A stretch of DNA of 64,000 nucleotides, from IMG/VR virus record IMGVR_UViG_3300029952_000010, positions 1-64,000 of that record, one strand, 5' to 3'. Shown piece by piece: positions 5,128 through 62,061 of this stretch. Source of the stretch: a virus. Each line of letters begins with the position of its first letter. Within the stretch, counting starts at the first letter, position 1. Under the pieces are notes generated by a model. It had not been told where the DNA came from and searched no databases. It saw only the letters and a program-made list of their open reading frames with translations. Position numbers and translations under genes: made by a program.

Positions 5128-5300
5128 ATAACAAAGATTATAGAGTGGGTCACAACCATCAAAAGCACAATTAAATCCGTATTAAAAAACGGGCGTACAT
5201 AAACGGTACACGTGCCATGGGCCTTTCAGCGTTGGGTCTTACTTACACCCCCGCAAGCGACCATACAGTAACTAATCAGCATATTGTACGTGGCGGGATG
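5128..5300 (+). other. Intergenic leader region, possible 31-codon ORF
   Basis: No gene of normal size lies here. A 31-codon frame starts at ATG 5217 and ends at TAA 5312 (MGLSALGLTYTPASDHTVTN...). Its last codons run into the hairpin of the next gene, so it could be a leader peptide. CCCGC near 5263 can pair with GCGGG near 5293. No clear promoter was found. Confidence 0.3.
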
Positions 5301-5335
5301 CCTCACATCTAACCGGTGTGAGGTTTTGGTGGTAT
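5301..5335 (+). promoter_or_regulatory. Leader hairpin with TTTTGGTGGTAT next to the start codon
   Basis: CCTCACATC (5301-5309) pairs with GGTGTGAGG (5315-5323), including one T-G pair. TTTTGGTGGTAT then leads directly into ATG 5336. Stem sequence differs from the 1884 element while hairpin position and the TTTGGTGGTA segment are kept. Confidence 0.55.
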
Positions 5336-15105: not shown

Positions 15106-15128
15106 AGACAGATAAATGTCTAAATTTG
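15106..15128 (+). promoter_or_regulatory. Operator palindrome overlapping a -7 box (site 1)
   Basis: AGACAGATAAATGTCT (15106-15121) has AGACA/TGTCT arms. It is followed by TAAATTTG (15121-15128), a perfect -7 box, four bases before ATG 15133. The palindrome abuts the box, so a bound protein would block transcription. Confidence 0.6.
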
Positions 15129-15132
15129 TAGC

Positions 15133-15327
15133 ATGACAGTACGAGAATTACTAAACAACCCAGATTTTAACAATGCTAGTATATCCAAAGAGGTATTCGG
15201 GCATAAGCGGATTATCAGCGATAAAGAAAAAAATAACCGTGGCAAATCATGGCTAAAAGGCGATTTCGAAAAAATATCTGATTATTTTGAAAAAAAGTAT
15301 AAATATTATTTGGAAGTGACAGATTAA
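15133..15327 (+). CDS. Small putative DNA-binding autoregulator
   Basis: 64 residues (MTVRELLNNPDFNNASISKE...), basic and helical, ending in FEKISDYFEKKYKYYLEVTD. The size and charge fit a Cro-like repressor, though no textbook helix-turn-helix is evident. The gene is bracketed by two copies of the same palindromic operator, one in its own promoter and one in the promoter of the next gene. That arrangement is the main reason to suspect autoregulation. It opens the rightward accessory cluster. Confidence 0.55.
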   Translation: MTVRELLNNPDFNNASISKEVFGHKRIISDKEKNNRGKSWLKGDFEKISDYFEKKYKYYLEVTD

Positions 15328-15339
15328 TGTCTATCTTTA
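15309..15339 (+). promoter_or_regulatory. Promoter with embedded operator palindrome (site 2)
   Basis: TTTG (15309-15312), 19 bases, then TATCTTTA (15332-15339). The spacer holds GACAGATTAATGTC (15318-15331), nearly identical to site 1. It would drive the gene at 15386, with a leader of about 40 bases. Confidence 0.65.
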
Positions 15340-17509: not shown

Positions 17510-18070
17510 ATGAAAAAAATAAGTACATTATTTAAAAAAGACCCTAACGATTTAGGTCGAGTAATCAACGAAATTAATCCCGAAAATGAATGGGCGTTTA
17601 CCAATGGTATCCCGACCAGAAAATACGATGGAACGGCATGCGCAGTAATAAATGGAGATTTATATAAGAGATATGATGTTAAAAAAGGCAGGAACGTGCC
17701 TCATTCTGCGATACCATGTCAAGAGCCTGATGAAATAACAGGACATTGGCCTCATTGGATTAGGTGTTATATTAATGAAAAAGCAGATCAATACCATTTT
17801 AAAGCCTTTGATATTGCACCCGAATTACCAGAAGGCACTTATGAATTATGCGGTCCTAAAATACAAGGGAACCCCGAACAATTAAGCGAGCATTATTTAA
17901 TAAAACATGGGTCAGGTAAATTAGAGATAAATGATTTGTCTTTTGAAGGAATCAAACAGTTTTTAACAGATAATGATATTGAAGGTATTGTTTTCCATGA
18001 AAGGGGTGGTGACAGGATGTGTAAAATTCGCAAATCTGATTTTGGACTTAAACGCACTTTAACCGCCTAA
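17510..18070 (+). CDS. Compact RNA/DNA ligase-like nucleotidyltransferase
   Basis: 186 residues with the covalent nucleotidyltransferase motifs in order: RKYDGT (37-42, Lys38 as AMP acceptor), YELCGPKIQGNPE (111-123, motif IIIa), EGIVFHE (158-164, motif IV) and CKIRKSDFG (171-179, motif V). It ends right after motif V, so it lacks the extra C-terminal domain of larger ligases. It could seal RNA broken by host defences, or adenylate another substrate. The family match (DUF5565-like) is from memory. Confidence 0.75.
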   Translation: MKKISTLFKKDPNDLGRVINEINPENEWAFTNGIPTRKYDGTACAVINGDLYKRYDVKKGRNVPHSAIPCQEPDEITGHWPHWIRCYINEKADQYHFKAFDIAPELPEGTYELCGPKIQGNPEQLSEHYLIKHGSGKLEINDLSFEGIKQFLTDNDIEGIVFHERGGDRMCKIRKSDFGLKRTLTA

Positions 18071-18264: not shown

Positions 18265-18736
18265 AGCAAAGATATTCAGCCTGTATTTGGGGCAGAAAGT
18301 AGAATATAACTTCAATAATAAGAAAAAACAAGATACAATATATGGTATTATTTCTAATCAAGTCGTGTTTAACGAAGTAAGCGCAGGAAGTACAGTTACA
18401 ACCAAAAATATTGATAAATGTTATCTTGTTCTCCGATCTGTTAAGCAGTTGACGGGAGTTGAGATGACAGAAATTCATAAACTTTTATTCCCTAATACTT
18501 TTTACCCAAATACAAATTATGTACTTCAGTTTCTTAATGTTATCGAAAGCCCGTACCAATACTCCTTAGATGATGATTTTAATTGCAAGGCTGAGTATGA
18601 AGATATATCAGCATTAATTGACTATCTCCGCTCAATCGGCATAGCATTGCCTGTGACAACTGTAGTCGATGGTGCTGTAAGGACTATTGGGGTGGAGGAA
18701 ATGGTGGAGGAAAAAATAATTTGTTTGGATATATAA
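18248..18736 (+). CDS. Phage protein of unknown function
   Basis: 162 residues. The first 70 are beta-rich (KVEYNFNNKKKQDTIYGIIS). The segment SIGIALPVTTVVDGAVRTIG (about 130-149) closes a helical second half. No family recognised. The promoter of the next transcript begins inside its 3' end. Confidence 0.6.
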   Translation: MTSEIKAKIFSLYLGQKVEYNFNNKKKQDTIYGIISNQVVFNEVSAGSTVTTKNIDKCYLVLRSVKQLTGVEMTEIHKLLFPNTFYPNTNYVLQFLNVIESPYQYSLDDDFNCKAEYEDISALIDYLRSIGIALPVTTVVDGAVRTIGVEEMVEEKIICLDI

Positions 18737-18755
18737 AAATAATTTTATATTTTTA
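18724..18755 (+). promoter_or_regulatory. Promoter of the structured leader RNA
   Basis: TTTG (18724-18727), 20 bases, TATTTTTA (18748-18755). Transcription would start near 18761, exactly at the 5' strand of the pseudoknot's first stem. Confidence 0.6.
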
Positions 18756-18759
18756 TGTC

Positions 18760-18854
18760 GCTGTTCCGTTATGAAGAAATTTAAAATATCCCGCTTGCAC
18801 ATTGCCATAGCTCATTCAGAGCAACGGAACAGCCTTTGTGTATAGCGGGTTTTT
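18760..18854 (+). ncRNA. Pseudoknot leader RNA, copy 1
   Basis: GCTGTTCCGTT (18760-18770) pairs perfectly with AACGGAACAGC (18823-18833). Inside that stem, CCCGCT (18790-18795) pairs with AGCGGG (18844-18849), which lies outside it, giving an A-B-A'-B' pseudoknot. A small hairpin GCTC/GAGC (18810-18822) stacks beside the first stem. A T-run follows and ATG 18862 is 12 bases on. Copies at 21802 and 62013(-) share the layout. Likely a cis-regulatory attenuator or riboswitch-like element. Confidence 0.6.
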
Positions 18855-18861
18855 ATTTCCA

Positions 18862-19038
18862 ATGAAAACCTTTAAAGAATTTAATATTTATCCTGATAAC
18901 GAATACCCTATGATGGCTAAAGCTGTTTTTATAGACGGGGTTTATAGTGGAGTTAAGTTGATGTTCAAGGCGGGACGTTCTAGTTACATCCATTTTATTA
19001 ATGATGCGGGATTAGAAGCGGAAAGGTTATTTTTATAA
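18862..19038 (+). CDS. Small phage protein behind the pseudoknot leader
   Basis: 58 residues from ATG 18862 (MKTFKEFNIYPDNEYPMMAK...). An in-frame codon at 18838 lies inside the leader structure and is rejected. Compact beta-rich protein (AVFIDGVYSGVKLMFKAG). Its stop overlaps the next ATG by one base. No family recognised. Confidence 0.6.
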   Translation: MKTFKEFNIYPDNEYPMMAKAVFIDGVYSGVKLMFKAGRSSYIHFINDAGLEAERLFL

Positions 19039-21756: not shown

Positions 21757-21787
21757 TTTGTTGTTGTAAATATAATGCTTATATTTG
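21757..21787 (+). promoter_or_regulatory. Promoter of the HNH gene leader
   Basis: TTTG (21757-21760), 19 bases, TATATTTG (21780-21787): a perfect match to the Bacteroidota consensus. Start of transcription near 21794, a few bases before the pseudoknot leader. Confidence 0.7.
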
Positions 21788-21801
21788 AATTAACAAACGC
21801 C

Positions 21802-21878
21802 ATGCAGGGCATAGTTAAAGATATTTTAATCCTTATTGGCGGATAGGACTGCATTCCTTGAAGCCGATAAGGATTTTT
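21802..21878 (+). ncRNA. Pseudoknot leader RNA, copy 2
   Basis: ATGCAG (21802-21807) pairs with CTGCAT (21849-21854). ATCCTTATTGGC (21829-21840) pairs with GCCGATAAGGAT (21863-21874) over 12 positions with one G-T pair. The order A-B-A'-B' is that of a pseudoknot. A T-run (21874-21878) follows and ATG 21885 is 10 bases after the last stem strand. Spacings match copies 1 and 3. Confidence 0.6.
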
Positions 21879-21884
21879 AATTAT

Positions 21885-22340
21885 ATGCCATCAGGATTCT
21901 ACGAAAGGAAAAATTTAAAGCCAATAATCAAAAGGTTTAATGAAAAATACGAAATAAATAAAGAAACAATGTGCTGGGATTGGAATGGTTCTCTGGAAGG
22001 AGGGGGATATGCGTCAATTAGAGTTAACCGAAAAATGGAATTGGGGCATAGAATTTCTTATTCGTTATTTATAGGTGAAATACCACACAAAATGGTAATT
22101 TGCCATAAGTGTGATAACACTAAGTGCGTGTCTCCCTTTCACTTGTTTTTAGGAACTCAACAAGAAAATGTAAGCGACTCTCTTAAAAAAGGGAGAAGAC
22201 CTAATGAGAAACACCCAAGTATGTATTCATATATAAAAAAAGGCTGTAGGTGTGAAGATTGTAAAAAGATAGCCAGTATAAATTCAAAAGAGAAATATAA
22301 TAGAAAAAAAAATAAAATTAATCAAATTTCAAACCTATAG
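21885..22340 (+). CDS. HNH homing endonuclease
   Basis: 151 residues from ATG 21885; an upstream in-frame TTG at 21858 is inside the leader pseudoknot and is rejected. HNH_3-type features: CWDWNGSLEGGGYASIRVNR (about 30-49), GHRISYSLFIGEI, then VICHKCDNTKCVSPFHLFLG with paired cysteines. C-terminal CRCEDC may hold a second metal. It lies antisense within the late block and overlaps the ATP-grasp gene by 23 bases, as expected for a mobile intruder. Confidence 0.8.
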   Translation: MPSGFYERKNLKPIIKRFNEKYEINKETMCWDWNGSLEGGGYASIRVNRKMELGHRISYSLFIGEIPHKMVICHKCDNTKCVSPFHLFLGTQQENVSDSLKKGRRPNEKHPSMYSYIKKGCRCEDCKKIASINSKEKYNRKKNKINQISNL

Positions 22341-58366: not shown

Positions 58367-58374
58367 ATTTTAAA

Positions 58375-58677
58375 GTTATGCACTTATGCAAGAGTTATGC
58401 AAGCCTTGCATAAGTGTAATTTATATGATTATCAGCGAGTTATAGAGGTGTTATGCACTTATGCAACTTTTACCGTTCCTTGATATAATAAAAATATATT
58501 ATATATATAGTTAAAATGTATTATCCTTCTGTTTTTGCATAAGGTGCATAACTTTTTTAAATAAGCGCAAAAATCTGCATAAGTGCATAAGTTTGGGTAA
58601 AAACGGCGTTTTTGATAATGTAAAGGCTGTTTTTTGTTATGCAAACGTTTGCATAAGTTTTGCATAAGTGCATAAGT
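58375..58677. other. Iteron array, putative replication origin
   Basis: TGCATAA or its complement TTATGCA occurs about 14 times. Several copies form head-to-tail pairs TGCATAAGTGCATAA (58375-58390, 58450-58467, 58576-58591, 58661-58676). Others form palindromes (58394-58412; perfect TTATGCAAACGTTTGCATAA at 58637-58656). An AT-only-like stretch at about 58480-58520 lies in the middle, as expected for a DNA-unwinding element. It is flanked by replication genes. Confidence 0.7.
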
Positions 58678-58703
58678 TTGATTTTTATACATAACTAATT
58701 GAT

Positions 58704-61650: not shown

Positions 61651-61923
61651 TTAACTAATTTTCCATAATTGAAGTGAGTTGAAATAAGTTTTTTTACCGG
61701 TTTTATCAGTCCACGGACGACCTTTCAAGTTAAAGTCAACAGATACACTTTCCCCTTGTCTAACATTATCTAATAAATCGCAACGATCATTAATAGCTTC
61801 GATTTTTATAAATTCAGGATATTGAGGGTTTTCCGCATACTCAATTATTAACTCCCTTTTCCTTAGTTTGTCAGAAACTTGTTCTGTGTTACCAACTTCA
61901 TGTACGATACCTTGTAAATTCAT
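61651..61923 (-). CDS. DUF3127 OB-fold, single-strand DNA-binding-like protein
   Basis: 90 residues. The DUF3127 signature is clear: KLRKRELIIEYAENPQYPEF (about 19-38), then CDLLDNVRQGESVSVDFNLKG and RPWTDKTGKKTYFNSLQLW. DUF3127 proteins are OB-fold relatives of SSB, common in Bacteroidota and their phages. Its ATG follows a pseudoknot leader RNA. It lacks an acidic SSB tip, which instead appears on the neighbouring 85-residue protein. Confidence 0.8.
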   Translation of the reverse strand: MNLQGIVHEVGNTEQVSDKLRKRELIIEYAENPQYPEFIKIEAINDRCDLLDNVRQGESVSVDFNLKGRPWTDKTGKKTYFNSLQLWKIS

Positions 61924-61929
61924 TTTAAA

Positions 61930-62013
61930 AAAATAAAGGCTTAAAACCAGTTCGATATGTTGAAGCTATCTCCCCGGTCTTAAGCCCGTTAATATTTTGT
62001 TACGCCCTTCAAC
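61930..62013 (-). ncRNA. Pseudoknot leader RNA, copy 3
   Basis: Read leftward: GTTGAAG (62013-62007) pairs with CTTCAAC (61965-61959). GGCTTAAGACC (61986-61976) pairs with GGTTTTAAGCC (61948-61938), one mismatch. The order is A-B-A'-B'. TTTATTTTTTT follows, then ATG 61923. The first strand can also pair with an upstream CTTCAA (62028-62023), an alternative fold as in riboswitches. Confidence 0.6.
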
Positions 62014-62061
62014 TGCGTTTTATTGAAGTACTAATATACAAATTTTATCGCATACTAAGAA

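Follow-up and report, generated by a model that had tools for sequence, protein, structure and literature searches.

An apparently undescribed kissing-loop leader RNA between promoters and genes of phages

A leader RNA recurs in the DNA analyzed here, in two copies and a third that is likely a divergent member, and is carried by many other viruses of Bacteroidota. In it, a 5′ hairpin presents a loop that base-pairs with the tip of a terminator-like hairpin; it is apparently a real, undescribed RNA control element. In its usual form, the leader comprises a hairpin (P1) near the 5′ end, an A-rich linker, the terminator-like hairpin, a U-run, and the ATG of the downstream gene. The terminator-like hairpin consists of P2, an internal loop, and P3, and its apical loop is complementary to the P1 loop over 6 to 10 nt. 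Comparative sequence analysis shows that the RNA folds in this way, that its loops pair, and that it is tied to a promoter, a U-run, and a start codon. The analyzed DNA (the window; 64,000 nucleotides) comes from a virus record of 68,367 bases in which portal and terminase genes are present. Its terminase is closest to those of Flavobacterium and Cellulophaga phages (about 25% identity), a likeness with which the promoter type, TTTG ... TAnnTTTG, is consistent in pointing to a Bacteroidota host.

The initial annotation had proposed a recurring pseudoknotted leader RNA behind a promoter and ahead of phage genes, and both the window copies and their homologues bear this out. At the locus it described (copy 1, window 18724-18862), the promoter, 11-bp stem, interlocking stem, T-run, and ATG all lie where it had placed them, with spacers of 19 bases between strands A and B and 10 between A′ and B′, as it had reported:

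18724-18755, plus strand: copy 1 promoter of the Bacteroidota type, with TTTG (18724-18727), N20, and TATTTTTA (18748-18755), form TTTG/TAnnTTTA; predicted start 18760
18760-18770, plus strand: strand A, GCTGTTCCGTT, 11 nt, partner 18823-18833
18790-18795, plus strand: strand B, CCCGCT, the 5′ side of P2, partner 18844-18849
18796-18801 with 18837-18842, plus strand: inner extension of P2, TGCACA with TGTGTA
18823-18833, plus strand: strand A′, AACGGAACAGC, within the terminator-like hairpin, in its apical loop
18844-18854, plus strand: strand B′, AGCGGG (18844-18849), then the T-run TTTTT (18850-18854)
18862-19038, plus strand: gene for a 58-aa protein, ATG at 18862

In Flavobacterium psychrophilum, the TAnnTTTG box occupies positions −12 to −5 (PMC9723704); by this rule, transcription is predicted to begin exactly at 18760, where the long stem starts, in agreement with the start that had been assigned. 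Among 20,000 dinucleotide shuffles of the 102-nt copy 1 leader, a stem of at least 11 bp starting at the 5′ end arose 6 times, and an A stem of at least 7 bp with a crossing B stem of at least 6 bp and a T-run arose 4 times. Across viral contigs, copy 1 itself recurred in only one, which was 100% identical and from the same virus; beyond this contig, the exact pattern of its 3′ half gave chance matches only. The proteins upstream and downstream of copy 1 likewise had relatives only in the same-virus contig, and no family was found for the 58-aa protein.

Two further copies, at +21799 and −62018, emerged from a scan of the window for a promoter, a pseudoknot, and a T-run, which matched at +21802 and −62013. 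By their layout, these are the two other loci to which the initial annotation had referred (+21799-21874 and minus strand 62018-61937):

21757-21787, plus strand: copy 2 promoter, TTTG ... TATATTTG
21799-21874, plus strand: copy 2, classical kissing form, T-run next; P1 GCC/GGC with loop ATGCAG, P2 ATCCTTATTGGC/GCCGATAAGGAT, internal loop GGAT/TGAA, and P3 AGGA/TCCT with loop CTGCAT
21885-22340, plus strand: gene behind copy 2, HNH endonuclease (PF13392)
61937-62018, minus strand: copy 3, kissing form, T-run next; P1 ACGC/GCGT with loop GTTGAAG, P2 GGGCTTAAGACC/GGTTTTAAGCCT, and P3 GATA/TATC with loop CTTCAAC
61651-61923, minus strand: gene behind copy 3, DUF3127 protein (PF11325)

The claimed strand order and A′-to-B′ spacers (8 at +21799, 10 at −62018) were confirmed at both loci; the A-to-B spacers are 23 and 21 rather than 21 and 20, because the stem ends were drawn slightly differently. 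Both copies show the full set of family features, from the promoter through P1 and P2/P3, with apical loops that are complementary, to the U-run and ATG. Copy 2 was the best window match of covariance model R1 (E = 0.034). Copy 3 was not matched by R1 in the window search; its descriptor score was 63.4, versus 57.1 for the best match in reversed sequences, and its minimum free energy fold draws a different 5′ hairpin. A pattern match at −58588 was dropped as a further copy; it sits in iteron-like repeats.

Several other features of the window were recorded. Direct and inverted iteron-like repeats around TTATGCACTTATGCA (58372-58680) adjoin a DUF3987 helicase/primase gene and make this region a candidate replication origin. 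A near-palindrome that looks like a repressor operator is repeated just upstream of two genes, where it overlaps promoter-like boxes (15108-15122, GACAGATAAATGTC; 15318-15332, GACAGATTAATGTC). At the very start of the record, a 60-nt unit occurs three times head to tail (positions 1 to 180); two of the units are identical, the third is 85%, and they may represent an assembly end or part of a gene that is repeated. A stretch of about 190 nt that has no listed plus-strand gene (5128-5317) and is G+C-richer and hairpin-rich precedes the ORF at 5318 and may form another structured RNA. The RNA ligase gene at 17510-18070 (phrog_14301, 231 bits) is common to many phage contigs and to Cellulophaga phage phi10:1; no link between this gene and the leader was found.

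Relatives of the leader were reached through loci retrieved for the neighboring RNA ligase gene, which yielded two leaders of the same layout with the stem CGTCTCAC/GTGAGACG. A pattern with this stem matched 46 viral-contig stretches, members being confirmed by covariance model; the same pattern without the T-run matched 56 viral contigs. When applied to one genome per species (84,980 bacterial and archaeal genomes), the CGTCTCAC pattern gave 21 matches, 19 of which were chance, leaving two real members, both in Sphingobacterium. A covariance-model search of 396 Bacteroidota genomes with stricter filters re-found only one Sphingobacterium member. Given few members in these genomes versus many in viral records, the leader is essentially phage borne. 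Among isolated phages, it is carried by Flavobacterium phage FL-1 (model R2, E = 7e-14), Cellulophaga phages phi10:1 (R2, E = 4e-4) and phi46:3 (R2, E = 0.02), and Flavobacterium phage elemoE (found by descriptor only). BLAST of two members against phages returned a partial match in FL-1 and two Serratia phage matches that were set aside as chance. About 20 other loop types were detected in phage records by descriptor search, including window copies 2 and 3. A subtype in two phages (L033, minus strand, 244; L132, minus strand, 7219) has P1 GTCG/CGAC with loop GCATCAC or GCACTAC, a linker of 29 to 33 nt, and almost no internal loop; the loop change is matched between the two.

Alignments of 16 and then 49 members support three nested helices, P1, P2, and P3. 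In the 49-sequence alignment, which has a 4-nt internal loop TGAA/GGAT, 97.1% of cells were paired, double-change cells numbered 342 (versus 93 in shuffles), and covariation was 0.696 (versus at most 0.10 for slid structures). Covariation was strong in each of the three helices, as had been sought by the covariance-model check proposed at the outset. Compensatory change, which had been claimed from three loci with different stems (weak evidence alone), is thus borne out by the homologues. The interlocking stems described at copy 1 are real, but the family-wide form differs: the long A pairing connects the P1 loop with the P3 loop in a kissing interaction between P1 and the P2-P3 hairpin, and copy 1, which lacks P1, is the exception. 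Unconstrained folding of copy 2, the leader in contig L067, and FL-1 recovered P1, P2, and P3 and left both pairing strands in loops; phi10:1 gave nearly the same picture. The TGAA/GGAT internal loop is conserved in the CGTCTCAC group; outside this group, internal loops (GGAT/TGAA, GGC/AAA, GGGGA/GAACT) and kissing letters vary freely. Linker length against rod length was also considered as a test of geometric strain (ρ = −0.63) and discarded as uninformative, since the way the linker and P2 are defined makes one longer at the expense of the other.

No P1 hairpin closes strand A in the copy 1 transcript, and its apical loop is larger. It has the family's strand order and spacing, a terminator-like P2 whose apical loop contains A′, a P3-like extension, the U-run, and the usual distances to promoter and ATG. 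Covariance models do not recover copy 1 in the window, so its membership rests on layout. The phi46:3 leader is P1-less in the same way (A, CTCTCACAA; B, CCGCTAAA; spacers of about 20 and 10), with a T-run followed by an HNH gene, and the two are likely divergent, P1-less members of the family. A 3-nt link makes it hard for the inner P2 extension of copy 1 to form alongside the full 11-bp pairing, and the computed energies of the two nested alternatives are nearly equal (−24.9 and −23.8 kcal/mol). On this modeling, we infer that they may be the closest thing to a switch visible in the sequence.

The CGTCTCAC group is unfit to judge the kissing helix, which the search itself had fixed in all but two members found by model. 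These two members, found by a model without kissing pairs, both carry matched double changes (L159, minus strand, GTTCTCAC/GTGAGAAC; L133, CATCTCAA/TTGAGATG), and the loops of phi10:1 are also matched (GTACGAC/GTCGTAC). For a noncircular test, leaders with loops other than CGTCTCAC were chosen by promoter, P1, P2/P3, T-run, and ATG, with no loop criterion. Self-complementary loops of at least 6 nt were present in 11 of these 14 leaders, whereas with partners swapped 0.86 of 14 were complementary on average and at most 4. The loop pairing is therefore real, and its letters are free to change. In records with two or three leaders (the window, L131 to L133, L153, and L154, for example), the loops all differ within a record; the CGTCTCAC loop, common between records, is never repeated within a multicopy record. 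These differences are suggestive of orthogonality, a reading biased by the choice of records.

The leader is closely tied to its promoter and gene. In 36 of 44 members, the −7 box ends 3 to 7 nt before P1, and in most members P1 lies at or a few bases from the predicted start. The start codon follows P2 by 6 to 26 nt (41 of 44 members), and a U-run of at least four T was present in 41 of the 43 members found without requiring one. The base of P2 is G+C-rich and abuts the U-run, and a stable stem followed by a U-run is the sequence signature of an intrinsic terminator or attenuator. The genes behind the leaders are unrelated (HNH and NUMOD4 endonucleases, MazG, YopX, DUF6291, DUF3127, a helicase, and a ParB-like gene that scored below the curated cutoff), and no common function was found among those examined.

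As a kind, the element is a structured leader RNA, and we found no counterpart to its architecture. Attenuators and terminator-type riboswitches likewise place a structured leader with a G+C-rich hairpin and U-run directly before a gene; the leaders described here differ in having no ligand core, leader peptide, or common gene function and in that their 5′ hairpin pairs with the loop at the tip of the terminator itself. ColE1 RNA I/RNA II and the HIV-1 DIS form intermolecular loop-loop helices of 6 to 8 bp, the former bound by Rop according to shape; in the present leaders, both loops belong to one molecule. The CGTCTCAC group has two unpaired A residues before the pairing letters, as does the DIS loop. 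In the CI RNA immunity of phage P4, complementary segments encoded in a leader are tied to premature termination, in trans and in a single operon; the anatomy differs. HK022 putL, an RNA of about 70 nt, forms two stem-loops and is encoded immediately downstream of an early promoter of the phage (PMC9378689). The put RNAs resemble the leaders in being short two-stem-loop RNAs; they differ in that neither kissing loops nor a U-run of their own are described, they have no sequence relation to the leaders, and they occur as two copies, at the two early promoters of one lambdoid phage. HMP_4078, a candidate RNA of about 109 nt found near phage genes in Bacteroidetes, is described as palindromic and, unlike the leaders, not terminator-like (PMC8040213). 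The initial annotation had recognized no known RNA family, and at the gathering threshold Rfam 15 gave 0 matches in the window. Among 14 member loci, the only match was an unrelated DUF805b RNA (RF02914; L074, 7371-7403); this viral contig has a kissing-loop leader about 300 nt upstream of it. Sub-threshold matches at copy 1 and two members were far below gathering; matches to trpB and psRNA6, also far under the gathering score, were rejected as effects of AT-richness and terminators. No description was found in searchable papers, though an unnamed listing may exist in subscription papers, preprints, or supplementary candidate lists.

We slightly favor the view that the leader acts as a transcription attenuator on phage genes that each have a promoter of their own, one of the two roles that the initial annotation had suggested. 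Host RNA polymerase would start at or a few bases from P1 in most members, and the nascent RNA of roughly 85 to 100 nt folds into P1 and the terminator-like hairpin (P2, purine-rich internal loop, P3, and U-run). The apical loops pair in a kissing-loop pseudoknot of 6 to 10 bp; copy 1, which has no P1, has an ordinary 11-bp pseudoknot instead. Transcription would either stop at the U-run, so that a short RNA results, or read into the gene, and the loop-loop helix, alone or bound by a shape-sensing partner, would set the choice. Such an attenuator would be used several times per phage, on unrelated genes. We take the terminator to be conditional because a strong one that always acted would serve no purpose between a promoter and the only gene next to it; with P1 at the start, the U-run kept, and the start codon near, a conditional terminator is the simplest account. 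No mutually exclusive antiterminator was seen in the kissing form, in which the kissing helix is compatible with P1, P2, and P3. Because the loops change in sequence and keep their shape, it is an appealing though speculative idea that their partner does not read sequence at all and is either the polymerase, as with put RNA, or a protein resembling Rop. It is conceivable, though we would not expect it, that control is phage-wide, with one phage protein or polymerase recognizing the loop-loop helix and switching many leaders at once while differing loops prevent cross-pairing.

The other readings we consider less probable. The size, position, and two-hairpin layout recall HK022 putL (PMC9378689), and a put-like RNA that makes its own polymerase resist pausing and terminators, including its own U-run hairpin, directly or with a phage factor, would be recognized by shape while its loops drift; this is unlikely, as put RNAs are not described with a terminator-like U-run, which here follows P2 almost always, and no sequence or Rfam connection exists. 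More doubtful is that the promoter mainly yields a stable 85- to 100-nt RNA, bounded by P1 at its 5′ end and by the terminator at its 3′ end, acting in trans, for instance by loop pairing with other leaders as in P4 immunity, with the gene expressed by read-through. A promoter, a compact fold, and a terminator-like end are features of small-RNA genes, and loops differ in every multicopy genome examined, but both loop partners belong to the same molecule and the nearby gene start would be needless for a free-standing RNA gene.

A riboswitch, the other role suggested at the outset, would have read-through governed by a small molecule bound to the internal loop or the kissing complex and would suit the leader position, the tertiary fold, the terminator-like end, and the conserved internal loop of the CGTCTCAC group. 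It is nonetheless improbable: outside this group no pocket is invariant, as internal loop and kissing letters change, and the downstream genes are unrelated in function. We think it just as improbable that the fold merely shields the 5′ end of the mRNA or tunes initiation, with the U-run serving as a U-rich initiation region. P1 does lie near the 5′ end, and Bacteroidota lack Shine-Dalgarno sequences (PMC9723704), yet the start codon is outside the fold, and intrinsic terminators have the same arrangement of a G+C-rich stem base directly against the U-run. Chance, or a DNA-level inverted repeat (an operator) with no RNA structure, is very improbable, even though 64 kb of sequence will not rarely contain one 11-bp inverted repeat; for the family, this reading is effectively refuted by the covariation of three nested helices, the loop pairing, the fixed orientation to promoter and gene, and the shuffles.

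With the kissing-loop leader, phages in which gene control has been little studied gain an RNA family that is sizeable and covaries strongly. The isolated phages FL-1, phi10:1, phi46:3, and elemo carry it, which makes the mechanism directly testable. Its variable yet matched loops offer a natural test of shape-based RNA recognition and may be a source of orthogonal RNA switches.
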